Below, one piece after another: positions 2,400 to 62,656 of a stretch of 64,000 nucleotides of DNA. The stretch covers positions 5,725,412 through 5,789,411 of the forward strand of contig NC_087385.1 of the NCBI RefSeq assembly GCF_963675165.1. The letters run 5' to 3'. Made by a program: the position numbers and the translations under genes. A model generated the notes under the pieces. It saw nothing but the letters and a program-made list of their open reading frames with translations. It did no database searches and was not told the DNA's origin. This stretch comes from Halichondria panicea. Its lineage: Eukaryota > Porifera > Demospongiae > Suberitida > Halichondriidae. Each line of letters opens with the position of its first letter. Position 1 is the first letter of the stretch.

Positions 2400-5300
2400 T
2401 GTGTGTGTGTGTGTGTGGTTTATGTGTACTCCAGCATTGTATGGCTAGAGGCATATGTGCATTGTTTGCAGAGCTCTGTGATGAGGATATCACTGTGTGT
2501 GATGTCTAACTAGTTGTGGACCTGTGGCTTTATGTATTGTCTGTTTATTCTATAGGTTTGAGCAAGCAAGAGAACTGCTCAACAATCGCAAGGGTTCCCT
2601 ACAGAAGATCTTATCAATTGCTGCTGTGCAAAGTAACTCTACCTCCAACAAAGCAAAATCATTCAAGAAAAACAAAATTACTCATGTGAGTCCCCATGCA
2701 ACTATAGTCTATATGACCTATACATATCGAGTAGTGTATGTAGCACAACACTTGCCCTACCTACGCAGAGTGAAATAGAGATCGTAAATGGAAACAACTC
2801 GGAGCCCCTTTCCATAACGTCCCCTGCGGCCCTGGACAACCCCGAGGCCAGTCTATATCTGGCCAAGACGATGGCCAGTGTGACAGAGGAGTACACAGAC
2901 GGTGAGAGCAGTGAGGCAGTGATCAAGAGTAGGAACAACGTGTACCGGGAGTTGGTGGAGACAGAGAAGGTGTATATCAAGGACATGCAGACGGTCATGG
3001 ACGTGAGTGTGGCGTACTGTAGTAGGTACAGCTGATATTTGAGGGGTGGAGTTTTGAATGTTCAGTCTCAGAAATAAGAAGAAATAAGATACATGTCAAA
3101 GGCTTTAAATCACATTGTCAAAGTTATAGCGTGTAATAAAAGTCATACAGCCCCTTCTGTGTTATTACACAGTCGCGTAGCCTCGAGGTATGATTTGGTA
3201 AGGGTCATCATGTTTTAAAACACATATAGCATGAGAAATTAATCCTTGTGTTTTATTCATATACAATTCGTTCTCGTGCTTGTGCCAGTATATTTCATAG
3301 TATCTACATTCATACTCGATATCATGTTATATCTGTTGCGCATAATTACGCTCATGTAATGGATTGACACTGTACATTGACGACTACTTGTACACCCCCC
3401 AGGCTTACTATGATGCTATGGACCCTGAGAGTGTGAGCATCCCACTGAGATTGCGGGGGAAGAGAGACGCTGTCTTTGGTAATATCCTCGACATCTACAA
3501 GTTCCATGACAGGTACACACAACCATGCTATTTAGCGTGTGCATTGTCAGCATACCAGAGTCTGGAGATGTGCAGCTAATCATGTGTTTGTCTTCTACAG
3601 TGTGTTCAGCAAGGCTTTGGATCGCTATGCCGACCAGCCAGAGAGAATGGGAGAGTGCTTCATTCAGTTTGTAAGTAGCACATTTCACGTGATGTACTTG
3701 TCTGTGGTACAAATGTGTGTTCTAGGCTGTTAAGTTTTGACTACGGGAGACATACTTGGCATACCCACGGGCCCAGCCCTCGCAGCTAGTGTCTGTGTAT
3801 ATATTGTACTGTCCTCATTGTCTGTACTGCCTTTACTTGTTCTTTCCTGCCTCCAGACCCAAGAGTTCCAGATGTACTCAGACTACTGCAAGAATCGCTC
3901 CAACTCTGAGACACTGGTTAACGAGGGGGCGGAGTGTCAGGCATTCTTCAAGGGCATACAGCGCAACCTTGCTCACGCTCTAGACCTCAACGCATATCTC
4001 CTCAGGCCGGTCCAGAGGATCACCAAATATCAGCTACTGCTCAAAGTAAGTTTAGCATAAAATCGTAGCATTTCGCTGTTGCTTAGCTCTGAAACACCAA
4101 AAACATATGAGGGGTGAGTAGTGCCAAAAGGAGGATGTTTTTAGGAGGGGGGTGTTTGTTTTGTTTGGTGGCGGCGGCTTAACCTCGAAGGTGGCGGCGG
4201 GTGTTTACTTGCTGGCGGCGGCTTAACTTCGAAGGTGGCGGCGGCTTAACCTCGAATGTGGCGGAGGCTGTTTCCTTCTTTATCTATGGTGGCGGCTGGT
4301 GTTTTTTGGTGGCGGCATGAGAGTGTAGAGACTCTATCTACGGTGGCGGCGGCTTAACCTCGAGGTTACGTCGGGTGTTTACTTGGTGGAGGCGGCTTAG
4401 CCTCGAATATAATTATTAATGTGGATGTGAATAAGATAATGTTGGACCACTTGACCTTTAACTAATTAAAGTTATCTTGGCAGACTACTTCTCAAGCTTG
4501 TTTTTAGTGTCTGGGAGGGATTGTGGAGTGGTCAAGACCAGTCCAGACAGTTGCTCTAGCGCTGACCTGATATCAGGCTGCTCATGGTCTCGAGGCTAGC
4601 TAGCACAGGAGCAACCCTCTGTTTCTCTACTATATTCACGGCTGGCCTTTACATTTTCGAGGCTAAGCCGCCGCCACCAACCACATTGCCGTCACCAACT
4701 GACACTCGCCGCCACCCTGGAGGTTAAGCCGCCGCCAACAACTGACACCTGCCGCCACCCTCGAGGTTAAGCCGCCGCCACAAAGTAAACACCGCCGCCT
4801 CCTAACACACCAAATTCGTTTTCTTTTGGCACTATTCACCTCTCATAAAAACATACTCTAAGGGAGCTTTCATTTATACTCATTCTGTAATATATTCCTG
4901 GCTTATCTATATTGTATTATTCCATCAGTGTACTGACTTATTGTTCATGCTTCTCTTCGTACCAATAACTACTGACTACCCCGCCCCCTCTAACTATACA
5001 CACTCTGTCACCCCCGCCCCCTCTAACTACATGCACACTCTGTCACCCCCGCCCCCTCTAACTATACACACTCTGTCACCCCCCGCCCCCTCTAACTACA
5101 CACTCTGTCACCCCCGCCCCCTCTAACTACACACTCTGTCACCCCCCACCCCCTCTAACTATACACACTCTGTCACAGGACATGATGAAGCATTCCAGCA
5201 ATGCCCCCAAGGCGTACTCTGACCTCCAGATGGCTCTGGACAGAATGCTCAAGGTCCTCAAGAATCTCAACGACTCTCTACATGTTGTCGGACTCAAAGG

Positions 5301-7851
5301 GTTTCCAGTAAGTTAATTAAAAAGATTTTGCACAAAAAGAGTCAAAAGTTCTACAACAACTCTCTCATGTTGTGATATTGAATAAAAGTTAATGCACAAA
5401 AAGATATTTCTTTACTGCTTGACAGCAATTGCTGTCAATTTCAGAGAAAATTTTACACCGAATGTGTAGTCTTGACTTTTCTCAATCGTATGCTTTTCGC
5501 ACTTATTGATTCTGAACTTTTTGGGGTTTTGAATGCCTGCACGATCGAGATCTACAAAAAACCGATAATCCCAATCTTTTCCAAACTTGCTGTCTTGATC
5601 AGTAGTGAACCCTTTCACCACTTTTCCTTGTGCAACTGTTTGAATAGTAGCCAATTTACTTCTAATAGGATCGTCTGCAGAAGGTTCAATCATATGCCCT
5701 CTTTGATTTGGTCCCAAGTATGATCCAGTAAATTCCTGACCTTCTAGTTCATTGTAGTACCTAGTTATCTTCTCCATTTGAGCATCTATTTCCATTTCAG
5801 CTGCCATCAATGCTATTTAGTGACCAACGTATGTCTTCTAAAGCTTTACAGTAAAGTTGTTGTACATACGTGTAAAGTTAATCTTAGACTGAAAGGTTAC
5901 ATAATTACTGCACGTGCTTACTGCTAGTCTATATTTGTATTCACTGTGTTAGTATTCACTAGCAAGGATAGCGTCAAACATTGTTCCTACATGTAGTGTT
6001 TACATGTACTTCGCGTGCTTATCATAATATTAGTTTAAGTGAACAATGTGATGTTTGCTTCCCCAGGGTGCTCTTGCTGAACAAGGAAGATTACTAGTTC
6101 ATGTAAGTGCTGTACCGACTTTCGTTAGGTCATGTGACAAATGGCCTCTTATAGGTATTGACTTATCAATATATCATGTGACTGTGTAGGATGCGTTCAA
6201 CGTGTGGGACAGTGGTGCCAGTGTCAGTCGCTCCCTTTTCTCCCGCGGCCATGAGAGACACGTCTTCCTCTTTGAGAAGGTCATCATCTTTAGCAAAAAG
6301 ATTGAAGCCTCTGAAGAGAAGAAGAGAGTCAGGAAATCGGACGCCTACCTCTACAAAGGTCACCTTGAGGTGAGTGCCTATACTCCCACCCCCTCTTATT
6401 CACCACACCCCCCTCACAGCTGACGGACATTGCACTGAAAGATTCCATCGACACTCAGCCTCTTCAGTTTATCTTAACGGTACATGGACAACAGAAAATA
6501 TACAAATTTCTGGTGAGTGCGATTGGGTAGCTTGTGTGTCATGTGATTAATAACCCCGCCCACAGGCCCAGACGAAGGTGATACACACCATGTGGACGAA
6601 TGAGATACGAAGATTGCTACAAGTCCAGTTCACACTCATGAAAGGTAGGGAGTGGTCTCTTGATGTTTGCTCGCTGTCATTATGGATACTCACACACACA
6701 CAGATAAGGTGATCAAGTCTGGGACTCTAGACAGAAAGAGTTACAAGGGGAAGACTAAGCTTTGTGAGTTTCTACCATTCTCCCCTTAATACAACAGTGT
6801 ACTCATCTGAACCTCCACAGCAACACATCAAAGAGACAGTCGGTTGTTTGCTTCCATCAAGGAAGAGTCCCCCAAGAAATCAATATCGTAAGTCGATCGA
6901 TACCCTCACCCCCCCCTCAGTTCATAACCTCCCCCTCCGTGTACAGTAACAGGTTCAACCTGTTCAAGCGAAACAAGAAGGGTGACCAGAAGAAGCCCCT
7001 TAAGTCCTCCACCAGTCTCTCAGGAAACCCAGAATCATCCCTCGTGGCTAGCTGCAGTGTCCCTCCCAGTCTCAAATACTCCATCGGTGGCAAGTCTAGT
7101 CGCAGAGCATCAAATGAGCAGGCCTCACTGTCCAAGTCCAGCATTGAGAGTGCCAGGAGCACCAACGGTGGGTTATTGTGTGTGTGTGTGGGTCACAGTA
7201 GTATTGTTTAATGTGTACATTGATATAGCTAGGTCCATCTGTTGACTGTAAGCACCCCCCCCTAATTATTCAGACACATGCAATAGAATACTTGTTTCAA
7301 TTGGTGTACACTCTCTCTCTATGCAGAGGAGAGCTCTAGTGAGGATGACATGTCCTATGATGAGGATGATGAGAGTGAAATGGGACAGACTGCAGATCAC
7401 TACGAGTCACTGGTGAGCCTATACCACACACTGCGTCAGGTTAACACACTCACTATGTATTAATTTTAGGTAATTGCCCTAATCTAATAATGGCGCTGTG
7501 TTGCTTTTGTAATGCTTCTGAACTGGCAAATTACGTTTACCGTGGCCCCCACACAATTTCGTCTGCACTGTGCACTATTCATTAAATACTCAACCCCACT
7601 CCCAGGCCCCTGGTGCTGCTCGCTACTACTACGCCATGGACGACTACAATTCTGGAGATTCCGATGGTGGTATCAGTCTCTGCAAGGAGCAACAAGTGGA
7701 GGTGCTGGGTATCAACCCCTACGGCTGGTGGTGGGTACGAGTGACCAACGACTGTAACGGGGAGTTAGAGGAAGGTTGGGTGCCAGCCAGTTATCTCAGA
7801 GTTATCGATGAGCTCAAGGAGGAAGGGACAAAATCAATAACTTGTGTATAG
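30..7851 (+). CDS. MCF2L/DBS-like Rho guanine nucleotide exchange factor, 3' portion (5' end outside window)
   Basis: Activates Rho-family GTPases at membranes by GDP/GTP exchange. I join 22 exons: 30-123, 182-289, 425-541, 732-1127, 1245-1370, 1562-1795, 2094-2302, 2556-2685, 2769-3002, 3403-3512, 3601-3670, 3857-4045, 5179-5307, 6067-6102, 6190-6369, 6420-6512, 6566-6644, 6704-6763, 6821-6887, 6947-7167, 7327-7412, 7606-7851. All phases agree, giving about 1,070 residues. Order seen: end of a Sec14/CRAL-TRIO domain (DELGGSLKYDHKSWV), spectrin-like helices, DH domain (YKFHD; LLRPVQRITKYQLLLK is the signature helix), PH domain (GHERHVFLFEKVIIFSKK), Ser/acidic linker, and a C-terminal SH3 (GWWWVRV, EGWVPASYL). 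This order matches MCF2L/DBS rather than Trio/Kalirin. The first exon starts inside the Sec14 domain, so the gene continues upstream of the window. Intron 12 carries a large transposon-like palindrome and intron 13 an antisense gene. Confidence 0.9.
2309..2418. repeat. (GT)n microsatellite in RhoGEF intron 7
   Basis: Nearly pure GT dinucleotide tract directly after the donor of the exon ending at 2302. The Cys/Val-rich and His/Thr-rich reading frames across it are artefacts of the repeat. Confidence 0.95.
4105..4855. mobile_element. MITE-like palindromic element with GC-rich internal minisatellite
   Basis: Lies in RhoGEF intron 12. Left end 4107-4130 (TGAGGGGTGAGTAGTGCCAA) is the imperfect inverse of 4829-4852. 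Inside each arm a unit of about 22 bp built on GGTGGCGGCGGCTTAACCTC is repeated several times, on the plus strand at about 4170-4400 and inverted at about 4655-4800, so the whole element could fold into a long hairpin. The paralogous intron at 8737-9124 lacks it: the flanks join directly there near 8785-8803. This gives a natural empty site. No transposase is encoded, so it is non-autonomous. Confidence 0.75.
4976..5178 (+). repeat. C-rich minisatellite forming the polypyrimidine tract of RhoGEF exon 13
   Basis: About seven units of 27-31 bp with core CCCCGCCCCCTCTAACTA followed by CACACTCTGTCAC. The last unit ends CTCTGTCACAG and is the acceptor of the exon starting at 5179. A second array occupies the equivalent place before the duplicate exon at 9125. 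Confidence 0.9.
5412..5810 (-). CDS. Antisense family member A, unrecognised, intact single exon (132 aa)
   Basis: I do not recognise this protein; it founds the nested family described here. It lies antisense in RhoGEF intron 13, about 100 bp after exon 13. A short charged N-terminal helix leads to a domain of about 115 residues with the landmarks LEGQEFTGSYLG, DDPIRSKLATIQTVAQGKV, KGFTTDQDS, DYRFFVDLD, and a C-terminal LKLTAIAV strand. No signal peptide or membrane segment is visible, so it is probably cytosolic. The closest relatives are copies B (9348-9803) and C (11851-12222). The start is ATG at 5810; a second ATG follows at once. Its upstream region has no perfect heat-shock-like motif, unlike B and C. 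Confidence 0.6.
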   Translation of the reverse strand: MMAAEMEIDAQMEKITRYYNELEGQEFTGSYLGPNQRGHMIEPSADDPIRSKLATIQTVAQGKVVKGFTTDQDSKFGKDWDYRFFVDLDRAGIQNPKKFRINKCEKHTIEKSQDYTFGVKFSLKLTAIAVKQ

Positions 7852-7984
7852 TTGCTCGTTTATTTGTTTGTGAACTTTGTGAGTGTTTATTTTTCTTAAT
7901 AGATTTGACTGTTGTATATTCACATTGACTTTTGATCCCACAATATTTTGATAATCTTATTTGATCTCATGGTGGTCTTGCATT

Positions 7985-8170
7985 TTGGAGGAGGGGCTAG
8001 TTTCTGTTTGCTGGACCATGTCCCATGTACAAGACAAGCTCTAGGACATGTAGGAGCTGTTCATTGCTAATTATCCTATGGCCATGAGCCTAAACTGTTG
8101 GAGTTTATGGTGAGACTCAAACCTAGAGCTAGAGCAATGGATATGGAGTCTCTGTCATGTCTGGTTTGAC
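7985..8170 (+). pseudogene. Decayed first exon of a TIR-NHL gene
   Basis: Closely similar to 19325-19510, the start and first exon of the TIR-NHL gene. Shared stretches include AGGAGCTGTTCATT, TGAGCCT(A/G)AACTGTTGGAG and TCTCTGTC. Small deletions and substitutions destroy the frame, and no second TIR exon or NHL exon follows. It sits about 130 bp after the RhoGEF stop, the same order as the second SH3 exon and intact TIR-NHL gene near 19 kb, so it was carried here in the same tandem duplication. Confidence 0.8.
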
Positions 8171-8300
8171 CATATATGGGGCTGAGAGTACTTCACATTC
8201 ACAATGTTCAGTTATAAAGCATTCATATGATATTTACCGTTGGTAGTCACTAAGTACTGTATATGTGGTGCAACTTTGTGTTCTGCACTGTTAGGTTTGT

Positions 8301-8412
8301 AATTTCGAGGGTGTAAACTTTCGCTTGTATAGACCACGAACATTTACTGAAAAACTATGATACTCCACGAACACTAAATGTTCTTTCCACAAAAGTTTAT
8401 ACCCTCGAAATA
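8301..8412. mobile_element. Short palindromic element (MITE-like)
   Basis: Inverted termini: AATTTCGAGGGTGTAAACTTT at 8301 faces AAAGTTTATACCCTCGAAAT ending near 8412, with about 70 bp between. No coding capacity. It lies close to the junction where the duplicated RhoGEF block begins (about 8455). Confidence 0.6.
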
Positions 8413-8454
8413 TACCCGCCTATACACTGTAATGTGACCCTCTCAAAAACATAG

Positions 8455-9244
8455 CTACTTGGCATACCCACGTGCCCAACCCTCGCTGCTAGAGTCTGAT
8501 ACTGTCCTCATTGTCTGTACTGCCTTTACTTGTTCTTTCCTGCCTCCAGACCCAAGAGTTCCAGATGTACTCAGACTACTGCAAGAATCGCTCCAACTCT
8601 GAGACACTGGTTAACGAGGGGGCAGAGTGTCAGGCATTCTTCAAGGGCATACAGCGCAATCTTGCTCACGCTCTAGACCTCAATGCATATCTCCTCAGGC
8701 CATCAAAGGATCACCAAATATCAGCTACTGCTCAAAGTAAGTTTAGCATAAAATCGTGGCATTTCAATATTGCTTAGCTCTTAACACCAAAACAGAACTA
8801 TTAAGGGAGCTTAGTTGTATGTACAGTACATCTCATCTATTCCTGACTTATCTATCTCATTCCATCCATGCATATACTAAATCTACTTCAGATCGAAATG
8901 TTCATATCGTGTTTCTATTACACTGACCCCCCCTGCCCCCTAACTACACACTCTGTCACCCCCGCCCCCTCTAACTATACACACTCTGTCACCCCCCCGC
9001 CCCCTCTAACTATACACACTCTGTCACCCCCGCCCCCTCTAACTACACACTCTGTCACCCCCCGCCTCCTCTAACTACACACTCTGTCACCCCCCGCCCC
9101 CTCTAACTACACACTCTGTCACAGGACATGATGAGCAATGCCCCCAAGGCGTACTCTGACCTCCAGATGGCTCTGGACAGAATGCTCAAGGTTCTCAAGA
9201 ATCTCAACGACTCTCTACACGTTGTCGGACTCAAAGGGTTTCCA
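8455..9244 (+). pseudogene. Duplicate of RhoGEF DH exons 12 and 13 (copy 2)
   Basis: The similarity begins in the intron at about 8455 (parent about 3750). Exon 12' (8550-8736) is nearly identical to 3857-4045 but has a small deletion just before the RITKYQ segment, which shifts the frame. Exon 13' (9125-9244) lacks nine bases in frame (residues HSS/KHS region) and is otherwise open. The C-rich minisatellite before exon 13 is duplicated too (about 8930-9124). Splice sites are kept. The frameshift argues against a functional DH domain. Confidence 0.85.
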
Positions 9245-9347
9245 GTAAGTTAATCAACGGAATAAAACATTTTGCACAAAAGGAGTCTAAAGTTCTACAA
9301 CAACTCTCAACATGTTGTGGCATTCAGAAAGGTTGCACAATAATAGG

Positions 9348-9803
9348 TTACACAATAGGAGGAGTAAAAGAAGGGATTGCTGTGACTTTCAGAGCAACCC
9401 CAACACCGAGTGCGTAGAGTGCATTTGGTGTTGTAAGTCTAAACGATTCGTAGCCATTGATTTTGAACTTGTCGGGGCTTGAAATTCCTGCAAAATCGAG
9501 ATCTACAAAAAAACGATCATTCCATTGTGGCCCGTACTCTCTGTCTTGATCAGTAGTAAACCCTCTCCACATTTTTCCTTGTGTAACTGTTCGAATAGCA
9601 GCCAATTTCTCTCCAATAGGATCGCCTACAGCAGGTTCAATCACATGCCATATTTTACCCTGATCAGACCATGTTCTCAAGTATACTCCAGTAAATTCCT
9701 GATCTTTCAGTGTTTTGTACTGTTTACGTATCTTCTTAAATTCTTTCTTTAATTCAGCTTCCCTTTCCACTTTAGCTTGCTTTTCCATTTCAGCTGCTAT
9801 CAA
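9348..9803 (-). CDS. Antisense family member B, unrecognised, intact single exon (151 aa)
   Basis: Same family as the 5412-5810 gene and in the same relation to the host exon: it begins about 100 bp after the 3' end of exon copy 13'. The N-terminal 30 residues are a highly charged helix (KQAKVEREAELKKEFKKIRK). The shared domain follows with LKDQEFTGVYL, GDPIGEKLAAIRTV, WRGFTTDQDREYG, DRFFVDLDFAGI and LKVTAI. No signal peptide, no introns. A perfect three-unit heat-shock-element-like motif lies about 130 bp upstream of the ATG (9933-9947). Function unknown; intact frame and conserved core suggest a working gene. Confidence 0.65.
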   Translation of the reverse strand: MIAAEMEKQAKVEREAELKKEFKKIRKQYKTLKDQEFTGVYLRTWSDQGKIWHVIEPAVGDPIGEKLAAIRTVTQGKMWRGFTTDQDREYGPQWNDRFFVDLDFAGISSPDKFKINGYESFRLTTPNALYALGVGVALKVTAIPSFTPPIV

Positions 9804-9932
9804 GCTATTTAGTGACCAAAGGTATGGCTTCTATAGCTTTAAAGTTGTTGCATGTACCTGTAAATTTGTTCTAGAAGGTCAAGTATATAATTATATGGAC
9901 AATGTCGTTACCATATTAGTATGTGTAGAGTT

Positions 9933-9947
9933 GTTCTAGAACATTCT
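9933..9947. promoter_or_regulatory. Heat-shock-element-like motif upstream of family member B
   Basis: GTTCTAGAACATTCT matches nTTCnnGAAnnTTCn exactly (three alternating HSF1 pentamers). It lies 130 bp upstream of the minus-strand ATG at 9803, embedded in a flank also found upstream of member C. Confidence 0.5.
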
Positions 9948-10261
9948 ATTGTTGATATATGCACGTGCAGTAAGCACGCTTATGTATTCATCAACCTCAG
10001 ACCTCGACAGGAAGCTACATATACATTAGAAATTCTACTAATGGATTGTCCGTACTTTCATGCCGCCCAGTTTGCATTTTATATCACAAAGTACACTTTG
10101 GGGAAAAGTGTACTGAAAACATTTTGTGAAAACATTGATGACTCCTCAAACTATGCCATCATACCATACCGCAACCAACATCTTTTTTGGTGTTTAAGTC
10201 AATTCTATACTTTCACCCATTTTTCCACAATAATATTATGTTTGAACTTGTTGTAAGATTT

Positions 10262-10276
10262 AGTCTAGAACATTCT
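10262..10276. promoter_or_regulatory. Degenerate heat-shock-element-like motif
   Basis: AGTCTAGAACATTCT matches the three-unit consensus with one mismatch in the first unit. It lies in a repeated flank that resembles 17540-17640. No gene starts close to it, so it may be only a duplicated relic. Confidence 0.3.
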
Positions 10277-10544
10277 ATTTGAATACACGCAACGCACGTG
10301 GTACTTCGATTATGTGACAAATGGTAAGTGTTATTGGTAATCAATCAGTGATTCGTGTAATCGGTGCCTGTAGCTTTAAAAGAAACACCCTCATTCTGTG
10401 CTTTAAAGGAGTATGTAATTCGTACCTGGCTTGTCTAATATCCGTGGACCGAATTGTTCATGCTTTTCTTTTGGTACTGAAGTATGATAATGACAACAGC
10501 GACTACGTACCCCCTGCCACCTCTAACCACGCACACTGTCACAG

Positions 10545-10664
10545 GACATGATGAAGCATTCCAGCAATGCCCCCAAGGCATACTCTGACCTTCAGATGGC
10601 TCTGGACAGAATTCCAAGGTCCTTAATGACTCTCTACACGTTGTCGGACTCAAAAGGGTTTCCG
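10545..10664 (+). pseudogene. Duplicate of RhoGEF exon 13 (copy 3), frameshifted
   Basis: Starts after CTGTCACAG like the parent and is nearly identical for the first 70 bases. Loss of bases in the DRMLKVLKNLN segment then shifts the frame. The acceptor and the GTGAGT donor survive. Followed on the minus strand by broken family member E. Confidence 0.8.
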
Positions 10665-10796
10665 GTGAGTGATTAACTACATAAAACTCGAATATATAAA
10701 ATCACCTCGAATATAAAATTACGCTAAAAGACGACAGACATGTAGACTGGCAGAATATGCCACTGCTGTAACCCCGTGGCTGGGCTTAATAGGAAA

Positions 10797-11523
10797 TTTT
10801 ATTACGAGTCCATATCCATATGAGTAATTGGTATTGGGATCTGAGGGATTCATAGGAATTGGAAATGTGTTAGTTAGTATCAGTGATCTCGTATTGACCT
10901 TCTGGTGAACTTTCGTTCACTATTTCTGCAAAGAAGCGGTAGTTGGTGTAGTACTTTGAGTCTTCAGGCCCAGTGAATCCTCTCCACACACGTCCGTTTG
11001 ATATATAGCAGGTGGATTGCTCTCAAGATGTTAATGATGTCAGTAGCTATAGAGCCATTATCCACTTCAATCACTTAATTCCCATGTTTTGTTTTGTCCG
11101 TTCCATTGTCCTTGGTGTGACATCCATTAAACACCTTGTACTTGAGCCAAGTGTAGAGTGCTCGTACTGCTGCTTTTAGAGTAGAGCGGGCTGCTTCTTC
11201 TTTTGCTTCTTGGATGCCTCTGAGTGTGCTTCTTCTATAATGATTTCTGCTTCTTCATTTACCTCTTCATTTGCTTCTTGAATCAATCCAGACGCTTCAT
11301 AGGGAGTGTTCTCAAAACTAGGCGCGTGATAAGTATTCGTCGTTAGTAGCTCGTAATAAGAATATACCCACGATTCCACTGTAGCCTTATAACTATAATT
11401 ATTGTAGTGGAATAGAAACTCCATGTTGACGGAAGCAACAGTTAGCTGTCTATTGTATGTATCCTTACTGCCAGTCCATAAACGGTAAATGTACATAATT
11501 ATGTATATAAATCCCACAAGCAC
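10797..11523 (-). pseudogene. Antisense family member E, broken
   Basis: On the minus strand the core is readable in pieces: WRGFTGPEDSKYYTNYRFFAE, then a GQYEI-type strand and the 3' end near 10797, close to members D and G. An insertion where others read CACACGTCCGTTTGCTATC (about 10990-11010), further indels and stops break the frame. Upstream at 11176-11280 there is a helical Glu-rich stretch (ANEEVNEEAEIIIEEAH) like the N-terminal region of member F. It follows exon-13 copy 3, keeping the exon-then-antisense-gene pattern. The 5' limit is uncertain. Confidence 0.6.
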
Positions 11524-11850
11524 CCGAGTGCTTAATGCCTCGACGTGTTTTGCTTCGGTCTAGAGTGTTATAGAAGAGGAGCTTAATGGTTATGGGAAAC
11601 AAAATTTATCTTGTATCCAGAGAACAAACAGTTATGAGCCCAAAATGTTATCAACAACGCAACATAACTTAGAAAATAAATGTACAATAATATTATACTT
11701 GTAAGTGCTGGTCTTAGGATGGCGCTGTAATTTGAAAAAAAAATAGGGTAATATCTGTTATTGGTACAGTTAAACAACTCTCTACATGCAGGAGCTCCTG
11801 CTACATGTTATAATTATACATGACTCTTAATAAAAATGAACCAGTTTTTA

Positions 11851-12222
11851 CTAAGTAGAAATTGTTGTGACTTTCAAAGAAAACCCAACACGAAGTTCGT
11901 AGGATCCACTAGTACTCATATCAAATCTATTGCAGTCGGTGATTCTGAACTTTGTGGGGTTTTGAATGCCTGCAAGATCGAGCCTTACAAAAAGACGATA
12001 ATTCCAACTATATCCACTGTCACTGTCTTGATGGTTAGTAAACCCTTTCCACACTTTTCCTTGTGCAACTGTTTGGATAACAGCCAATTTAGCTTCAAGA
12101 GGATCGCCTGCAGCAAGGTCAATCTCATCCCACTTTCCATCATTCCCCTTGTACCTTCCAGTAAATTCCTGACGAACTAATCCCTTGTAGAGCGCAGCTA
12201 TCTCTTCCTTTTGAGTTTCCAT
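11851..12222 (-). CDS. Antisense family member C, unrecognised, intact single exon (123 aa)
   Basis: Shortest intact member, of the A/B type: VRQEFTGRYKGN, GDPLEAKLAVIQTVAQGKVW, KGFTNHQDS, YRLFVRLDLAGIQNPTKFRI and a final LKVTTI strand. Starts at ATG 12222 with only a short helical lead. A perfect heat-shock-element-like motif is 111 bp upstream (12333-12347), in a flank almost identical to the one upstream of B. No signal peptide or membrane segment. Function unknown. Confidence 0.65.
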   Translation of the reverse strand: METQKEEIAALYKGLVRQEFTGRYKGNDGKWDEIDLAAGDPLEAKLAVIQTVAQGKVWKGFTNHQDSDSGYSWNYRLFVRLDLAGIQNPTKFRITDCNRFDMSTSGSYELRVGFSLKVTTIST

Positions 12223-12332
12223 CGATGCTGTAGTTGTGTCCTCTCTATTATTTAGCTTTTAATGAAAGTTGTTGTATGTATGTGGTATATATACGCATGT
12301 CATTACATGGTCCAATTAGTACGTGTAGAGTT

Positions 12333-12347
12333 GTTCTAGAACATTCT
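12333..12347. promoter_or_regulatory. Heat-shock-element-like motif upstream of family member C
   Basis: GTTCTAGAACATTCT, identical to the motif upstream of B and an exact match to nTTCnnGAAnnTTCn. Distance to the ATG of C is 111 bp. Confidence 0.5.
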
Positions 12348-12991
12348 ACTAGCTTATACTCAGTGTTCCATATAAATTATGCACTTGTACATGTATGCAT
12401 TCGCTATATATAGCAACAATGATGTCAAACGATATTCATAGACTTCATTCACAAGTGCATTCTATGGCCATAAGGCAAGCCAAACCTAACAATTAAAATT
12501 CAGTCACAATAAACCTGCATAATCACAATGTTTATGGAGGTATAATCCTCCACAGAAGTATAACCTCTGTGGGCCTCATATGCTAGATCTGTGCACAGAT
12601 TAAGTGCAGAATCCATTTGGATTTCCAGTTCCCAATGCAATCAAGTAGACACGCCCATGTGTTAGATCTATAGTATACATGCCCCCCAGCAGAACTAGAG
12701 GAGTCTGGTAGCTAGATTAGATCTATTCAATGGCAAACCAACACAAAGTAAATGTAGTTAAGGGCCAATAATTATTGATTGGGAGAGATTTTCAGCGATC
12801 TGTTATCATAACGTTTCCCCTTCACACACACACACACACACACAGCTGGTAAGACAACCGGTATGGAAGGGTTCCAAACAACCTGTATCAGCAACACTAC
12901 ACGGAATATACCTCTGTGGCACAATATGACGGAGGAATATACCCCCGTGAAGGTCGTGAAATATGCAGGTTTAGTGACAAGAATTTTGTTT

Positions 12992-13060
12992 GGTAGACCT
13001 CAACGCGAATCTCCTCAGGATCAGCCCAGTCAGAGGATCACCAATTGTCAGATTAGTCAG
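12992..13060 (+). pseudogene. Fragment of RhoGEF exon 12
   Basis: TAGACCTCAACGCGAATCTC and AGAGGATCACCAA match the LDLNAYLLRP-RITK segment of exon 12 with several changes. It is too short and altered to code. The stretch 12350-12990 before it holds a CA microsatellite (about 12824-12843) and no gene I can see. Confidence 0.6.
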
Positions 13061-13819
13061 AGGTACTGCCAAGTACGCGTAATCAACATCTGTATAATTA
13101 TGTATTCATACCTCAGACCTCAGACAGGATATAGCATTAGCTATTAGCTACACGTACGTCTGAATTGTTCGTACTTCAATGCCGCCCAGTTTGCATTTTA
13201 TCTATCACAAATCACAAAGTACTATTTAGGAAAAAGTATACTAAAAAAATGTTGTGAAAACATTGAGTTGACTCGGACTCGAACACCAAAAAGAACACAA
13301 GGGTTGGTGTTGGCTGTTTTATGGTTGATATAGTTATTGGTATGGTTCGAGTGAGATACAGCACTACATGCATGTACTTCTGCTTTTTGATTATCACTCT
13401 GATAATCAAACTACTGGCATATCATGATGATAGAAGATTAGGAGTACAGGGGTAAACAAATAATTAATTTTGCAATGACGCTATGATTTTACTTTGGTAT
13501 GCCCGCACCCACCTGTTTCTGCATTAAAGTTGAATTATTTACCTAGGATAAAAACAACCCATTGTATGTCCATGTATAACATCATCGAGTTGTAACAACT
13601 TAGTGCTGTACCTAGCTCATTCAAACCATGTTTTTCTAGTTATAGCAAGTTCAATTAGCACTCTCATTCTGTTTTTATTGTATGTCTGTAATTGTACTGG
13701 GTTTGTCTAATATCATTCTATCCTGTACTGAAGTGTTTATGCTCCATCATTGGGACTGAACTATAATAATGACAACAACTACTGGCTACGTACCCCCCTA
13801 AACACACACTCTGTCACAG

Positions 13820-13948
13820 GACATGATGAAGCATTTCAGCAATGCCCCCAAGGCGTACTTTGACCTCCAGATGGCTCTGAACAGAATGCTCAAGGTCCTC
13901 AAGAATTTCAACGACTCTCTACACGTTGTCAGATTCAAAAGGTTTCCA
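13820..13948 (+). pseudogene. Duplicate of RhoGEF exon 13 (copy 4), open but diverged
   Basis: Full-length copy of exon 13 with intact acceptor (CTGTCACAG), open frame and GTGAGT donor. It carries several amino-acid changes (for example KHFSN, YFDLQMALNR, RFKRFP). Because flanking DH exons are absent or broken it cannot make a DH domain alone. The upstream 13100-13800 is non-coding; 13090-13260 repeats a flank also seen near 9980 and 17100. Confidence 0.75.
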
Positions 13949-14159
13949 GTGAGTATATATAATTACAGGTTTCTGTTCCTTTTGATTATGTTGCATGCTG
14001 GCAAACAATCGTGTTTTGTGCGTGCAATAATATTAATGTAAGCAACGAAACCACAGCGTAGACGTCCGTAGGCGTAAACGTGTGTAATCTAATTAGCATA
14101 CTATGCAAACGAAACAGAAGCTTTAATTTGGCAGCTATGGCTACTGTCTGAATAGTATA

Positions 14160-14631
14160 ATTGGAGGGGTGACAGTACAAGCACCCGTAGGAAATTGTTA
14201 TTATGACTCTACGTTTATCTCTGTAATTGGGATTGTTAGGAATGTCAAATGGTTTACAATCCATGATCTTGTATTGACCTTGTGGTTGAGGTGAACTTGG
14301 ATTCACTAATTCTGCAAAGAAGCAGTAGTTGGTGTAGCTTTTTGAGTCTTCAGGCCCAGTGAATCCTTTCCACACACGTCCGTTTGCTATCAAGTGAATT
14401 GCTTTCAAGCTTTTAATGACGTCAGTAGATCGAGGTATTATCCACAAGAATCATATCCCAATATTTTTCTTCTCCTTCGGGTTTCAGATCTTTGATTTTA
14501 AATCGTTGTTTGTAAGTTCCCTTGAACATCTTTTGTTTTAGACCGTCATAGTATGATTTAATATCTGGCATTGGTACAGGCTGTACAGGTGGTAGTACAG
14601 CTGGCTCCATCATTGGGTGAAAGTAGTACAA
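14160..14631 (-). pseudogene. Antisense family member D, frameshifted
   Basis: Begins with ATG at 14631 and reads a Pro-rich lead, then LKQKMFKGTYKQ and DMILVDN. Near 14430 an insertion of about four bases shifts the frame; the continuation in another frame reads STDVIKSLKAI, WKGFTGPEDS, TNYCFFAELVN, FDIPNNPNY. Apart from this break it is well conserved with F and G, so the lesion looks recent, or is a sequencing error. It follows exon-13 copy 4 directly. Confidence 0.7.
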
Positions 14632-14808
14632 GCTTATAGCAATGATTTTAATATACTCTTCAACTTCAGTAAACTCTTTAAAGTTCTTGTAGGGAGATTA
14701 TTGTAGTATGTGTACTTAGTGTAGGAGTTGCTAAATATGCACGTGCTTAACGAATTCTTGTCCATATTTAGTAGTGGCAATGTCAACAGTCTTAATTATC
14801 CTTGCCCC

Positions 14809-15866
14809 AGTGATCCTGCTGAACAAAAAGGTTACAGTTCATGCCGTAAATGGTGTACATTGACGAATATTGGCCACTTAAATTGTTTAATATCAATATA
14901 TCATGTGACTGTGTAGGATGCGTTCAACGTGTGGGACAGTGGTGCCAGTGTCAGTCGCTCCCTCTTCTCCCGCGGCCATGAGAGACACGTCTTCCTCTTT
15001 GAGAAGATCATCATCTTTAGCAAAAAGATTGAAGAGAAGAAGAGAGTCAGGAAATCAGACGCCTACCTCTACAAAGGTCACCTTGAGGTGAGTGCCTATA
15101 CTCCCACCCCCTCTAACAGCTGACAGACATTGCACTGAAGGATTCCATCGACACTCAGCCTCTTCAGTTTATCTTAACGGTACACGGACAACAGAAAATA
15201 TACAAAATTCTGGTGAGTGCAACTGGAGCTTGTGTGTCATGTGATTAATAACCCCGCCCACGGGCCCAGACGAAGGTGATACAAACCATGTGGACGAATG
15301 AGATACGAAGATTGCTACAAGCTTAAGTGCAGTTCACACTCATGAAAGGTAGGGAGTGGTCTATTGATGTTTGCTCGCTATCATTATGGATACTCACACA
15401 CACACAGATAAGGTGATCAAGTCTGGGACTCTAGACAGAAAGAGTTACAAGGGGAAGACCAAGCTTTAATTGTGAGTTTCTACTATTCTTCCCTAATACA
15501 ACAGTGTACTCATCTGAACCTCCACAGCAACACATCAAAGAGACAGTCAGTTGTTTGCTTCCATCAAGGAAGAGTCCCCCAAGAAATCAATATCGTAAGT
15601 CGATCGATACCCTCACCCTCCCTCAGTTCATAACCTCCCCTCCGTGTACAGTGACAGATTCAACCTGTTCAATCGAAACAAGAAGGGTGACCAGAAGAAG
15701 CCCCTCAAGTCCTCCACCAGTCTCTCAGGAAACCCTGAGTCATCCCTCGTGGCAGTGTCCCTCCCAGTCTCAAGTACTCTATCGGTGGCAAGTCTGGTCG
15801 CAGAGCATCAAATGAGCAGGCCTCACTGTCCAAGTCCAGCATTGAGAGTGCCAGGAGCACCAACGG
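14809..15866 (+). pseudogene. Duplicate of RhoGEF exons 14-20 (PH domain block), broken
   Basis: Exon order is kept: a degenerate exon 14 (about 14809-14850), exon 15' (14917-15087, three codons deleted in frame), 16' (15120-15212), 17' (about 15268-15348), 18' (about 15408-15474), 19' (about 15528-15593) and 20' (about 15652-15866). Exon 17' contains an inserted CTTAAG giving an in-frame TAA, exon 18' gains TAAT, and exon 20' has lost bases. Intron sequences are also nearly identical to the parent at 6067-7167, so the duplication is fairly recent. Confidence 0.85.
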
Positions 15867-15956
15867 TGGGTTGTTGTGTGTGTGTGTGGGTCACAGTAGT
15901 ATTGTTTAATTTGTACATTGATATAGTAGCTGTTATACCGTATAGCGCGAAATTTT

Positions 15957-16149
15957 CGAATGTACTCAAATGTGCTCAGACTACTGCAAGAATCGCTCCA
16001 ACTCTGAGACACTGGTTAACGAGGGGGCGGAGTGTTAGGCATTCCTCAGGCATACAGCGCAACCTTGCTCACGCTCTAGACCTCAATGCATATCTCCTCA
16101 GGCCAGTTCAGAGGATCACCAAATATCATGCAGCTACTGCACGCTTAAA
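15957..16149 (+). pseudogene. Second duplicate of RhoGEF exon 12, broken
   Basis: Matches parent 3870-4045 but sits out of order, after the PH block. GAGTGTTAGGCATTC creates a stop and nearby deletions shift the frame. Its 5' side starts abruptly within the exon after a sequence like a palindromic element end (TATAGCGCGAAATTTTCG), so an element-mediated breakpoint is possible. Confidence 0.8.
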
Positions 16150-16343
16150 GTGAGTTATTGACATGAAAAACGTGGCATTTATAATTTTGAGCACCCGTAG
16201 CTTGAGTCAAAAACATGCTCTCATTCTGCGTTTTAATTAAACATAATTAATTATAGCTAATGTAATTAGTTCAAAGTAAACATTATACAGACTACACTAA
16301 TCTATTGTAACTCGTGGCCGCCTACGTAGTTTGGGTTGATTTC

Positions 16344-17000
16344 TTATATACACTTGGAAATTGTTATTTTGAATCCAGTTCCTTCTGGGTACTTGCTATT
16401 TGCAGGAAAATTAAACTCTTGAACATTATTGATCACGTGTTGACCTACTAGTTGTAAACGTTCATTATTTTCTGCAAAGAAGCGGTAGTTGGTGTAGTAT
16501 GTCGAGTCTTCAGGCCCAGTGAATCCTTTCCACACACGGCCGTTTACTATCGGGTGAATTGCTCTCAAGATCTGAATGATGTCAGTAGAGCCATTATCCA
16601 CATCAATCATTTCCCACTCTTTGCCATGTCCATTCCATTGTCCTTGGGGACGTCCCTTGAACACCTTTTGCTTGAGGCTACGGTAGAGTGCATGTACGTT
16701 ACCTTCATTACATAGACGTGCTTCTTTTTCTTCCTCTAAACGGTGGCATGCTTCCTCAAATTGATTCTGTATTTTTTCTTTTGCTTCATCAATACATTTG
16801 TGTGCTTCCAGCTCTTTGTCAACATGGAGTTGTACACACAGGTGTGCTTCTTCTGCCTTGTCCTCAATCATTTGGGATGCCTGGTTGTATTCACCCTTTT
16901 TTATAAGGTCTGCTGCTTCTTGAGGCCATTTAGAGACCTTTTCTTTTGCGCCCTGTACTATACCTATATTCGGTTCTTCATATTGTACTTCTTCATTCAT
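16344..17000 (-). CDS. Antisense family member F, longest intact member (218 aa)
   Basis: Unrecognised. Residues 1-105 are an acidic, helix-rich region with Ala/Glu/Lys heptad character (KEKVSKWPQEAADLIKKGEY, EACHRLEEEKEARLC), likely a coiled coil or helical bundle. Residues about 108-218 are the shared domain: YRSLKQKVFKG, WNGHGKEWEMIDVDNGSTD, IQILRAIHPIVNGRVW, KGFTGPEDS, TNYRFFAE, and a final KITIS strand. It belongs with D, E and G (FTGPEDS type). Intact, single exon, no signal peptide. It lies between duplicated exon 12'' and exon 13 copy 5, the equivalent of host intron 12. Confidence 0.65.
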   Translation of the reverse strand: MNEEVQYEEPNIGIVQGAKEKVSKWPQEAADLIKKGEYNQASQMIEDKAEEAHLCVQLHVDKELEAHKCIDEAKEKIQNQFEEACHRLEEEKEARLCNEGNVHALYRSLKQKVFKGRPQGQWNGHGKEWEMIDVDNGSTDIIQILRAIHPIVNGRVWKGFTGPEDSTYYTNYRFFAENNERLQLVGQHVINNVQEFNFPANSKYPEGTGFKITISKCI

Positions 17001-17573
17001 TTTAGCTTCACGTTCGTAGAATTTGATAAACTTAAGCTATATTGAATTTAAGTGCGGTAGCTAGTAAGTGCAAAGTGCGTGTAAATCAAATGTGTATGTA
17101 TTCATCAACCTCAGACCTCAGACAGGATATAGCTATTAGCAGGAGCACATATAGGTGCTCCTGCTATTAGCTACATGTATACATTAAAAATTCTATTAAT
17201 GGCCGGATTAATTGTTCGTACTTTCATGCCACCCAGTTTGCATTTTAGTACTATTTGGGAAAACAGCAATTTTTGTGTCAAGTGTTCAGGTAGTTTGCTG
17301 GTGATTCAGGATCATATATATAGAGGATATAGGAGTACAGGGATAAACAATATTTATAACATGTTGCAACGATTTACTTTGGTATGCCCTCCCCCTCCCC
17401 ACTTGAGCCTGCATTAAATTATTTACCCAGGATGTGTCATCAAAGCTGAAGGAGTAGTGCTGTCACTCAAACCATGCCATATAAAACAACGTACCAGCAC
17501 CAACCTATTGTTTGGTGTTTGGGGTCAACCCTATACTTTTATTTTTCCACAATTTAATAATGTTGTAAGATTT

Positions 17574-17588
17574 GTTCCAGAACAATCT
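17574..17588. promoter_or_regulatory. Degenerate heat-shock-element-like motif upstream of member F
   Basis: GTTCCAGAACAATCT matches nTTCnnGAAnnTTCn with one mismatch in the third unit. It lies 574 bp upstream of the ATG of F, within a flank that recurs near 10260. The stretch 17001-18030 otherwise shows no gene. Confidence 0.3.
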
Positions 17589-18038
17589 ATATTGAAGACA
17601 CGCAACGCACGTGGTACTTTGATCATGTGACAAATGGTCAAGTGTTGTTGAGTACCTTAAGGTGACATATTTTCACAGGTAGATTTGTTTGCGTTTTTAC
17701 ACACATTGTTTTTACAGTTTTGTACATTTTGCTGGTATAATTTTTTGCGAAATGTCGATCTGGATACATTAAACAAGAGGGCGGCCAATTATTTGCGAGT
17801 ACTAATTTTTGCGATTTTACTTTCATTCGCAGAAATAGCAGAAATAATCAGTGACTCGTGTAATCGGTGCCTGTAGCTTTAGTCTAAATTTAAAAAACAC
17901 CCTCATTCTGTACTTTAAAGGAGTATGTAAATTCGTACCTGGCTCGTCTAATATCATTCCATCCATGCACCGAATTGTTTATGCTCTTCTTGACTACCCC
18001 CTGCTCCTTGCCCCCTCTAACCACACACTCTGTCACAG

Positions 18039-18154
18039 GACATGGTGATGCCCTCAAGGCGTACTCTGACCTCCAGATGGCTCTGGACAGAATGCTCAAG
18101 GTCCTCAAAAATCTCAATGACTCTCTACACGTTGTCAGACTTAAAGGGTTTCCA
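18039..18154 (+). pseudogene. Duplicate of RhoGEF exon 13 (copy 5), frameshifted
   Basis: Acceptor CTGTCACAG and GTGAGT donor are kept. The 5' part has lost about 13 bases (GACATGGTGATGCCCTCAAG), which shifts the frame relative to the parent. The rest is nearly identical. Followed by antisense member G. Confidence 0.8.
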
Positions 18155-18314
18155 GTGAGTGTATTAATCACATAAAACTCGAATATATAAAACCAAACAC
18201 ATTAATTAAACAGGGGTGACTGACATTATTATACATACTGGCAGAATGTGCCATTATTTTAACCTCGAATACGCTAAGAACAACAGACATGTAGACAGCT
18301 GGCAGACTGTGCCA

Positions 18315-18737
18315 CTACTGTAAACCTGTGGCTGCATGGGCTAAACAGGAAATTGTTATTTCGACTCCATATCCATCTGAGTAATTGGGATTATTTGGAA
18401 TCGAAAATGGTTTAACATCAGTGATCATGTATTGACCTTCGAATTCTGATGAACTTTTGTTCACAATTTTTGCATAAAGGCGATAGTCGTTGTAGGAGTC
18501 TTCAGGCCCAGTGAATCCTTTCCACACAAGTCCGTTTGCTTTCGGGTGAATTTCTTTCAAGATTTTAATGATAGAGCGATCATTCACGTCAATCGTATCC
18601 CAGTCTGTGCCATGTCCGTTCCATGGTTTTTGTTCACATCCTATGAATATCTTGTGCTTGATACTTTGATTAAGGGATTTAAGTTCTTCAGATTTCCATG
18701 CCATCATTGAGTGAAAGTAGTCTACTAATCGTAACAA
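18315..18737 (-). CDS. Antisense family member G, unrecognised, intact single exon (140 aa)
   Basis: Same family, FTGPEDS type: NQSIKHKIFIG, WNGHGTDWDTIDVND, ILKEIHPKANGLVW, KGFTGPEDS, GQYMITDVKPFSIPNNPNY, GVEITIS. The C-terminal strand is followed by about ten unrelated residues. It starts at ATG 18737, with a second in-frame ATG at the MMAW segment. Sits about 160 bp after exon-13 copy 5. No motif for secretion. Function unknown. Confidence 0.65.
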   Translation of the reverse strand: MLRLVDYFHSMMAWKSEELKSLNQSIKHKIFIGCEQKPWNGHGTDWDTIDVNDRSIIKILKEIHPKANGLVWKGFTGPEDSYNDYRLYAKIVNKSSSEFEGQYMITDVKPFSIPNNPNYSDGYGVEITISCLAHAATGLQ

Positions 18738-18990: not shown

Positions 18991-19338
18991 GCCCCTGGTG
19001 CTGCTCGCTACTACTACGCCATGGAGGACTACAATCCTGGAGATTCCGATAGTGGTATCAGTCTCTGCAAGGAGCAACAAGTGGAGGTGCTGGGTATCAA
19101 CCCCTACGGCTGGTGGTGGGTACGAGTGACCAACGACTGTAACGGGGAGTTAGAGGAAGGTTGGGTGCCAGCCGGTTATCTCAGAGTTATCGATGAGCTC
19201 AAGGAGGAAGGGACAGCGTTGTGTATTTTTTGTGAACTTTGCATTGCGAGTGTTTATTTTGTATGGATAGATTTGACTGTTGTACAGTATTCACATTCCC
19301 ACAAAGATACAAGTTTTGCATTTGGGGGGAGGGGCTAG
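18991..19338 (+). pseudogene. Duplicate SH3 exon (RhoGEF exon 22')
   Basis: Nearly identical to 7606-7851 with intact acceptor and an open SH3 (GWWWVRV, EGWVPAGYL). The C-terminus differs after EEGT and runs on to a TAG at 19336-19338. No intact PH or DH exons precede it in frame, so it looks like the 3' end of the broken second RhoGEF. It could still be spliced to something upstream. Confidence 0.75.
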
Positions 19339-19370: not shown

Positions 19371-21041
19371 ATGGCTGAGGTTGAGGCAGAGTCAGTACAA
19401 GACCAGGAGCTGTTCATTAGCTATGGCCGTGAGCCTGAACTGTTGGAGTTTGTGGCGAGACTCAAGCTAGACCTAGAGAGCAATGGATTCTCTGTCTGGT
19501 TGGACATGAAGGTCAGTGAGTACAGTACTAGATCTTGCTCTATAGAATAGATCTAGCTATTAATTAAATATAGAAGTGTGGGTCTAGCTGATGAGTGCAA
19601 ATTGACTGCGAATTGACCACACTTTTGTTTCTTATCTAGGATATCCAATCTGGTAGCGATTGGCATGGGGCTATTGGAAAGGGACTGCACAAGTGTCGTG
19701 GCATCATTCCAATCATCACCTCTAAGTACCTCACCTCTCGATTTTGCATCAACGAGCTGTACACAGCTGACGGAGACAAGAAACTCATCTTTCCCATCAT
19801 CTTTGAAGATGTGGACTTCAACTCTAGTGACACGGCGATGGGAGTCAAGTTTGTGATAAGCAGCATCAATTGGGCATGGCTGCGACCTGAGGATGACTAC
19901 GACACCAACCTCTACAAGTTTATGGAGGGATTAAGGACCAAAGGTGTGCGGCGTGTATCTACCTATGAATGATTCTTTAGGCGTAATTAGTGTTGAAACT
20001 GCAACTTAGCATTGTTATGGTATCATCACAAAGATTCCCTCATTTTCCATTTTCTACCCTTATTTGGCAATTTACAAGTTTCCTGCTAGTACAAATAATT
20101 TAAGGGGCCCTTCATTCACTGCAGGTATAGGCAGTCCAAAGAGTGAGGGTGAAGATGGTTCCTTGGCCTCACACAACATTCCGCCAGCTCCCATCATTGG
20201 ACCAGAGAATACGTCAAAGCCTCTCTTTCGAATCCCTGATGTTGAGATGGTACAGGGCATCACCACTGGACCCGATGGAGAGATAATCTGCTCAATAGCG
20301 GCAAAACATGCAATTTTTGTGTTCAATCCAGATGGTGAGAAGATCCTCTCATTTGGATCGTGTGGCATTCAGCCAGAGGAACTGATGAGCCCAAGTGGAG
20401 TGGCTGTCAATGGCGATGGACATTTGCTTGTAGCCTGTCAGTACAGTATCAAGAAGTTCACACTTAAGGGTGAGCTGGTACAAGAGTACGGTGGAGCCAT
20501 GACACCTGATCCAGATGAACGCAAACTACAGGCTCCCAGTGCACTAGTCATCGCCCCGAATGGAAATGTCTACATTTCAGAGATACAGACCCACAAAGTC
20601 AAGATTTTTGACTCTGACCTGAATTTTATCTCATCGTTCACCAATGCTTGCCCTGACCTTGGATCCGGACATCTCAACATGCCGCAAGGACTTGCAGTGA
20701 ACTCAGAGGGGGAGGTGTACGTGGCTGACCAACTCAACGGTGTGATACAAGTGTTTTCAGGTGATGGAGACTTTCTCTTTAAGTTTGGAAAGCCTGGTGC
20801 AACTGCTGGAAGTACGACGACCCCTTGTAGTATTGCTATTGATGAAGGAGACAATGTGTACGTTGGCAGTGGGATGAGTATCGTGTCCATCTTCAAAAAG
20901 AATGGTGGTTTTGTTCGAAAATTTGGTGGTAATGGTGCTGAGCTGGGCAAATTCAATTATCCACGAGGACTGCATGTGGACAAGCAAGGACTAGTGTACG
21001 TTGGAGAATGGACAAACAATAGAATTCAGGTTTTCAAATGA
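19371..21041 (+). CDS. TIR domain-NHL beta-propeller fusion protein
   Basis: Three exons (19371-19511, 19640-19943, 20125-21041) join in phase to 453 residues. Residues 1-148 are a TIR domain: box 1 ELFISYGRE, then FSVWLDMKDIQSGSDW, IIPIITSKYL, and SRFCINELYTA, whose Glu sits where catalytic TIR NADases carry theirs. A linker (about 149-175) leads to six NHL-type blades (about 178-453), each with GxAVxxxGxVYVxD-like and IxVF-like strands. TIRs signal by assembly or NAD cleavage; NHL propellers bind RNA or protein in TRIM-NHL proteins. No signal peptide or membrane segment, so cytosolic. The start is the first ATG after an in-frame break and gives a TIR that begins as expected. A decayed exon 1 copy is at 7985-8170. 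An innate immune or cell-death role is inference. Confidence 0.85.
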
Positions 21042-61658: not shown

Positions 61659-62656
61659 ATGGCAGACACTACAGAAGACAAGGACTCTGGAGACAGTCCT
61701 CTCACCCACAAGGAACGCTGTAAAGAGGAGTGCAAAAAAGCTCTTGGCATGTGTTTCTGGAATAAGGTAGTAGAGAGCTTTAAAGCCAGGGATAAGAAAA
61801 GAAACGAACAAGGTATACATAGCCAATTATATAAGTAAAGAAAAGCTACGTACCACATTGAATACAAAAATACTATAACAAAGCTTATATAAAATGCCTA
61901 ATACCAATGCACTACCCAATAATAACTATATTTGTATACTGGACTAATTACTCAAATTCAACAGATCCCGAGGATAAAGAGGCCGAGATACAACAAGAGA
62001 AGGAAGAGCTCGAAGAACAACTCGAACTGATTAGGGAGAACTCAAAGGCTGACAAAGAAAACTACCTTGAGCAAATAACAATCCAAAAAGAAGCATATGA
62101 GCAGCAATTGTACGATCAACAGCAAAGCTACGACGGACAAATCCAGCAGCTCCAACTTGACCTGGAGAAACGCTCCCTGGCAATCCAGAATGTCAGTGAC
62201 ATGGTCCAACAGTACGAATTCTTGGTTCCCGAGTATAGCAGGCTCAAGAGAGACAGGGCGGAATATATAACACCTCCAATTTACTCCAAGCCAGGTGGTT
62301 ACAAGTTTGTGATTAAGGTGCTGGTAGTTGGTTCTAGGACTGGATTGGGTTCTCATGTGTCGATACAAGGTTTGAGTCAACTGGGAGAGTATGATGCCAA
62401 CTTATCCTACCCGGTGAACAACATGTCTGTGACGCTGCAGATTTTGAACCAGCAGAACAAGAAAGAGAGCTATGAGAAGCAAGTGCATTTCACTTATACC
62501 CGGAGCAATAATGGTGAAACCCTTGGGTCTGATTTCCAGTTCATAAGCCATCAACAGCTTGAGGAAAATGCAGCAATCTATCTCAAGAACGACACGCTCT
62601 GGTTCAGGATAACGAAGATCCAAATCGAGACTGCAAATCCAGGAAGTAAGAAGTAG
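61659..62656 (+). CDS. Coiled-coil MATH domain protein 2
   Basis: Two exons (61659-61812, 61965-62656) join to 281 residues. The N-terminus has Cys-containing helices (KERCKEECKKALGMCFW). Residues about 55-135 form a strong coiled coil (KEELEEQLELIRENSKADKE, QQLYDQQQSYDGQIQQLQLD). Residues about 145-278 are a MATH domain (YITPPIYSKPGGYKFVIKVL, HVSIQGLSQLGEYDANLSYP, FQFISHQQLEENAAIYLKND, LWFRITKIQIE). Coiled coil plus MATH is the C-terminal half of a TRAF, which suggests a trimeric adaptor without ubiquitin-ligase RING. Paralogue of the gene at 58993 from its domain sequence. Confidence 0.85.

Follow-up and report, generated by a model that had tools for sequence, protein, structure and literature searches.

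We analysed a 64,000-nt stretch of the genome of the sponge Halichondria panicea (positions 5,725,412-5,789,411 of contig C9, NC_087385.1, in an assembly of 131 Mb and 39 contigs; hereafter the window) and found seven copies of one unnamed protein domain, all on the minus strand between position 5412 and ~18.7 kb, in and among the duplicated exons of a plus-strand RhoGEF gene. The nested copies are labelled A-G and the host exons a-m; exon d is the DH exon that was copied. We propose that the copies belong to a single-locus, lineage-restricted family that was diversified under selection, was multiplied together with a segment of the RhoGEF gene and has a role in recognition or stress, an account which in our judgement could equally well prove right or wrong. 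The evidence that the reading frames are maintained is good, and that for positive selection on the family is moderate.

Copies A, B, C, F, and G each hold an uninterrupted ATG-to-stop frame (131, 146, 123, 218, and 130 codons, respectively), and their remaining five frames each contain 1-22 stops. Copy E is a stop-containing sequence spread over three frames, with a leader resembling that of F. No introns were seen in the nested genes and no signal peptide was recognized by eye. These results confirmed the seven minus-strand copies and the two subtypes described in a first-pass annotation of this DNA, although the motif FTTDQDS that named one subtype is exact in A alone (B has FTTDQDR and C has FTNHQDS). 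All copies had been placed in RhoGEF introns or duplicated intron remnants; of the seven, only A is located in an intron of an apparently working gene, and B-G are found among duplicated remnants, C and F without an exon d immediately alongside. The five exon d copies were found where they had been described, but the gap between exon d and the nested gene, given as 35-210 bp, is ~103-211 bp (A, B, E, D, and G; 104 bp for A). As a whole, the earlier observation was partly confirmed.

Selection was estimated as the ratio of nonsynonymous to synonymous differences per site (pN/pS; Nei-Gojobori, with bootstrap intervals). Within subtypes the intervals were 1.06-2.38 for A-B, 0.84-1.99 for A-C, 0.75-1.60 for B-C, 0.63-1.31 for F-G, 0.92-2.63 for F-D, and 0.66-1.74 for G-D, A-B being the sole pair of the six whose interval excludes 1. 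Between subtypes, for which alignments were made at the protein level and so lean towards low values, pN/pS was below 1 in six of nine pairs (A-G, B-F, B-G, C-F at 0.53-0.81, C-G, and C-D) and reached 1 in A-F, A-D, and B-D. Maximum-likelihood omega was 1.78 for A-B, 1.37 for A-C, 0.98 for B-C, 0.92 for F-G, 2.62 for F-D, and 1.13 for G-D; the nonsynonymous to synonymous rate ratio (dN/dS) among open close paralogues is therefore ~0.9-1.8, and the low dN/dS hoped for in the first-pass annotation was not observed. In site models, twice the log-likelihood difference (2dlnL) of M2a over M1a reached 28.1 for A, B, and C, 17.1 for F, G, and D, and 25.3 for A, B, C, F, and G; with gap-adjacent columns masked, the value for A, B, and C was 24.2. 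In null simulations run with fewer optimiser starts, 0 of 60 attained 28.1 (maximum 9.2). The 20 sites flagged in A, B, and C at a naive posterior above 0.9 are distributed over helix 1 (4), strand 1 (3), the next loop (1), helix 2 (1), the loop before strand 3 (3), strand 4 (3), the loop after it (4), and the C-terminus (1), with none of the 20 in residues 55-66.

Neutral simulation from the present sequences, with independent branches and indels ignored, gave a chance that all five frames stay open (as a product) of 1.2e-4 at 0.1 and 2.3e-8 at 0.25 substitutions per site. The first-pass annotation had proposed that dN/dS near 1 together with a lack of antisense transcripts would mark a known family or a decaying repeat, and by this rule the values obtained would suggest decay. 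The open frames, the between-subtype pN/pS below 1 in six of nine pairs and the positive-selection class indicate diversification instead. The further proposal of selection on the antisense gene with host exons carried along holds insofar as five copies are open at ~30% divergence and multiplied with host DNA, but the expected low dN/dS was not seen; the earlier interpretation was partly supported. A rather unlikely alternative is that constraint was relaxed after duplication and that the high dN/dS reflects ongoing decay, with D and E ahead. It would account for the two dead copies of seven, the gene-wide dN/dS, which for most pairs does not depart clearly from 1, the similar divergence of coding and flanking DNA, and the database relative P0033, which appears truncated; however, five open frames are improbable under neutrality, nearly neutral evolution is rejected by the site models, and close relatives of A, C, and G are equal to them in length.

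The whole assembly was searched with five protein queries (C, F, P0026, P0034, and P0023; cut-off E ≤ 0.001), and all listed matches fell inside the single cluster. The codon pattern for VWKGFT occurs four times in the assembly (C, D, F, and G) and its reversed control once. The gene family is real and, among the matches listed, was detected at this one locus; remoter members may lie elsewhere. A profile search with the family returned 34 unnamed proteins (weakest E 1.5e-7), two of which, P0001 and P0008, are the window's own C and B. A tree of 34 sequences combined six copies from the window with 28 proteins from the database, after exclusion of six others (own, short, or truncated). In it A pairs with P0003, B with P0009, C with P0002, and G with P0013 at bootstrap 100, and F with P0014 at 99; the identities are 117/131, 118/146, 103/123, 129/130, and 195/216, respectively. 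Because each open copy pairs with a database protein, the copies predate the split from the organisms or individuals behind the database contigs; G and P0013 may well be from the same species. Residues F20, L46, G60, F61, and T62 are invariant in the family alignment (A2).

No family of Pfam (E ≤ 1), NCBIfam or PHROGs (both E ≤ 0.1) matched more than two of the 31 members examined, in line with the unrecognised domain of the first-pass annotation. Weak matches to single members included PF22433 (0.0012), PF28068 is a precomputed label on P0023 whose model lies outside the Pfam set scanned, and matches to PDB sequence profiles were weak (best E 1.8 and 0.6). The library matches of P0023 and P0014 are located in the leader; the leader of F itself appears helical by eye, with supporting coiled-coil-type matches in relatives. 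In P0023, a relative of F (292 aa, on a 29-kb contig), the leader carries four 33-residue repeats starting at 37, 70, 103, and 136, which match Pfam DivIVA. Among the full texts searched for VWKGFT, no paper contained the letters of the core motif. Scans with one motif pattern each yielded six hits in prokaryote genomes and 19 hits among viral contigs, none of them a confirmed relative. The copies are apparently intronless, multicopy and fast evolving, as the ORFs (open reading frames) of a mobile or viral element or of a spreading repeat might be, but the listed matches are confined to one locus of 131 Mb, the prokaryote and viral patterns yielded no relative, and a host exon travelled with A and B at least; we consider such an origin extremely improbable.

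Host copy 1, whose splice sites were picked by eye, was joined into a model covering exons a-m with RhoGEF (from profile position 38 onward), PH, and SH3 domains; the nearest solved structure by sequence is DBS (E 4.8e-61). Since exons a-m form one open frame, A alone is nested in an apparently working gene, as a complete ORF within the intron 5308-6066. Its antisense position there, 104 bp from exon d in an intact exon series, is what would be expected if the nested genes were mainly antisense regulators that adjust DBS through their transcription, or through RNA pairing, close to exon d. That reading is very unlikely: the protein motifs are conserved with between-subtype pN/pS mostly below 1, the relatives are conserved as proteins, and B, D, E, and G adjoin duplicated exons, not working ones.

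Downstream of copy 1 we found two further copies and a fragment of exon c, four and a fragment of exon d, one of exons f-k, and one of most of exon m; exons a, b, e, and l had no further copy at E ≤ 1e-3. A remnant of the start of the next gene sits behind the first SH3 exon (8052-8142), and the DNA preceding the second exon c matches that preceding the first from 3753 onward; we therefore infer a duplicated segment that started in the intron upstream of exon c and reached into the TIR gene. Exons d1 and d2 agree at 118/120 positions (190/212 with 100 bp of flank), and A with d1 and B with d2 evidently form a single duplicated unit. With flank, d3 and d5 are each other's closest (155/205), but the exons alone (87/106) are the least alike of ten pairs; a unit of E with d3 and G with d5 was dropped, as the exon-alone identity gives it no support. 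The description of the host exon copies as mostly broken is right for c and h, where damage was judged partly by eye, but overstated for exon d, of which d1, d2, and d4 keep both the reading frame and the AG and GT splice dinucleotides. Selection for the exon d copies themselves, which would serve as alternative DH exons while the antisense genes came along as passengers, would be in line with three of five copies being in frame with splice sites and with the near identity of d1 and d2. We hold this to be highly improbable, because d2-d5 lie beyond the first SH3 exon, the c and h copies are broken, and passengers are not expected to remain open. A ~33-bp minisatellite (CCCCGCCCCCTCTAACTA...) is present at 4979-5169 and 8927-9117, reaching the splice acceptor of exon d in d1 and d2, and the c-d intron contains at 4130-4800 repeated GGTGGCGGCGGCTTAACCTCGAAGG-like units, including opposite-strand versions (by eye).

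Table 1. Nested copies, host exons and upstream sites in the window.
Feature	Position	Strand	Description
Gene A	5412..5807	-	131 aa, open; in d-e intron of host copy 1
Gene B	9348..9788	-	146 aa, open; 103 bp from d2
Copy E	10797..11330 (ends approximate)	-	F-type pseudogene, three frames
Gene C	11851..12222	-	123 aa, open; no directly adjoining exon d copy
Copy D	14160..14613 (ends approximate)	-	FTGPEDS subtype, frameshift between 14422 and 14450
Gene F	16344..17000	-	218 aa, open; leader ~100 aa, then domain
Gene G	18315..18707	-	130 aa, open; 160 bp from d5
Perfect heat-shock-element-type site TTCTAGAACATTC	9934..9946		146-158 bp upstream of B ATG
Same site TTCTAGAACATTC	12334..12346		112-124 bp upstream of C ATG
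Host copy 1, exons a-m	3403..7851	+	One open frame; DBS/MCF2L-like
Exon d copy d1	5179..5307	+	129 nt, in frame, AG and GT
Exon d copy d2	9125..9244	+	9-nt in-frame deletion, AG and GT kept
Exon d copy d3	10545..10664	+	Frameshift inside
Exon d copy d4	13820..13948	+	129 nt, in frame, AG and GT
Exon d copy d5	18039..18154	+	116 nt, frameshifted
Exon c, second copy	8550..8736	+	Frame broken by 2-nt loss
Exon c, third copy	15967..16140	+	TAG plus indels
Exons f-k, second copies	14917..15865	+	h with TAA-bearing insert, AG lost
SH3 exon m, second copy	18991..19215	+	225/243 bases matched, 98.2% identity
Remnant matching 19405-19488 (TIR-NHL gene start)	8052..8142	+	Marks end of duplicated segment

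The structure model of C is confident (predicted local distance difference test 93.4) and shows a small, five-stranded domain. One VIA-align run over Foldseek-ranked chains gave phage Enc34 SSB, RNase R, and CusF as best matches, with aligned stretches of 58-104 residues among the best 19. We take these to be OB-fold proteins; the family would be likewise small and five-stranded by prediction, over matching stretches of that length. There is no clear fold match for the predicted model in that single comparison, which is not evidence of a new fold. The catalytic triad of ADP-ribosyltransferases is R-S-E, with a conserved Glu, and no Glu was found in the invariant or near-invariant columns of 31 sequences.

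Genes B and C are preceded by TTCTAGAACATTC, which we take to be a heat-shock element. The 24-base block around it occurs in the assembly solely before B and C, with three mismatches allowed, and 33/34 positions around the site agree between the two, against 153/299 for the upstream DNA overall. Near matches are present at 10263 (475 bp upstream of the B ATG) and 17575 (575 bp upstream of the F ATG), and one-mismatch sites are not commoner in the window (18) than in shuffles (15.2). By eye, the imperfect sites at 10263 and 17575 lie within another repeated stretch, upstream of d3 and d5. Intronless genes suit a stress response. Like the intronless heat-shock genes, B and C have no introns seen and a perfect TTCnnGAAnnTTC upstream; unlike them, the family members are not chaperones, and A, F, and G have no element within 250 bp.

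On the account that we favour, the family would have five open members and two dead ones, its proteins being small and probably cytosolic, and would have originated near exon d of a DBS-type RhoGEF as an antisense gene lacking introns. Duplication would then have taken in the stretch that begins midway in DBS and extends into the following TIR-NHL gene, after which exon d and the nested genes were presumably copied further, with decay of most other host exon copies. The fixed VWKGFT...D core may serve for binding or catalysis, the helix and loops that vary may contact a changing partner (a pathogen, symbiont or non-self product), and the leader of F could be an oligomerising coiled coil. Genes B and C might be stress-induced via the heat-shock-type element, as would suit intronless genes.

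Several results weigh against this account. Gene-wide dN/dS is only marginally above 1: 2dlnL for gene-wide omega was 4.19 for F-D (the only value above 3.84, and one that uses a piece of the broken D), 3.19 for A-B, 1.8 for A, B, and C together, 0.0-1.1 for the other four pairs, and 0.1 for F, G, and D. In the masked model of A, B, and C only slight constraint acts on the lower class (w0 0.71). The site models used three to five sequences and naive posteriors, and gene conversion or multi-base mutations could distort their outcome. The coding sequences of A and B are about as diverged as their flanks (291/396 identical vs 81/100 and 70/94), a count that also gave no support to a greater divergence of the coding DNA. 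Neither AATAAA nor ATTAAA occurs in the 400 bp 3' of A, B, C, and G, and a single ATTAAA was found in that range for F. The 250 bp preceding A, F, and G on their upstream side hold no perfect heat-shock-type site, and B and C may owe theirs to common descent. A defence or recognition role would be assigned by analogy.

In animals that lack antibodies, defence and self-recognition require the diversification of other proteins, and little is known of its cytosolic side in simple animals. We tentatively suggest, as a rather unlikely extension, that the copies represent an undescribed intracellular recognition or effector family in which a small alpha+beta domain, with no clear match to a known fold, holds a fixed VWKGFT...D site among hypervariable loops and new specificities arise when a piece of the RhoGEF gene is duplicated along with the antisense gene that it contains; if so, polymorphism of the locus and its induction by stress or microbes would be expected. 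The domain is unnamed, its structure is predicted with confidence, all its detected copies map to a single locus, and selection seems to act outside a fixed core, which makes it a directly testable candidate. The locus also illustrates the multiplication of a nested gene along with exons of its host, a process that leaves broken host exons as a misleading trail.

The gene behind the cluster (19376-21041, plus strand) has a TIR piece followed by NHL repeats and is probably one gene. Farther along, two adjoining ORFs (60188-60730 and 61862-62656, plus strand) encode TRAF-like MATH domains.

Tandem, rapidly diversifying clusters of defence or recognition genes are a general class. The locus resembles them in its tandem copies, with dead among open ones, in site-specific positive selection around a fixed core, and in the adjoining TIR-NHL gene. 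Unlike them, this family is without a known immune domain or a signal peptide seen by eye, its putative role is drawn by analogy, and its copies lie antisense among remnants of the host gene. Gene nesting in itself is common among sponges: a published study gives 2432 nested genes in Aphrocallistes vastus and 3358 in Amphimedon queenslandica, and describes glassin as a single-exon gene nested in another gene (PMC10282587). Like glassin, A is a single-exon gene inside a host intron; unlike glassin, it belongs to seven copies of one unnamed domain at one locus, spread with duplicated host exons.

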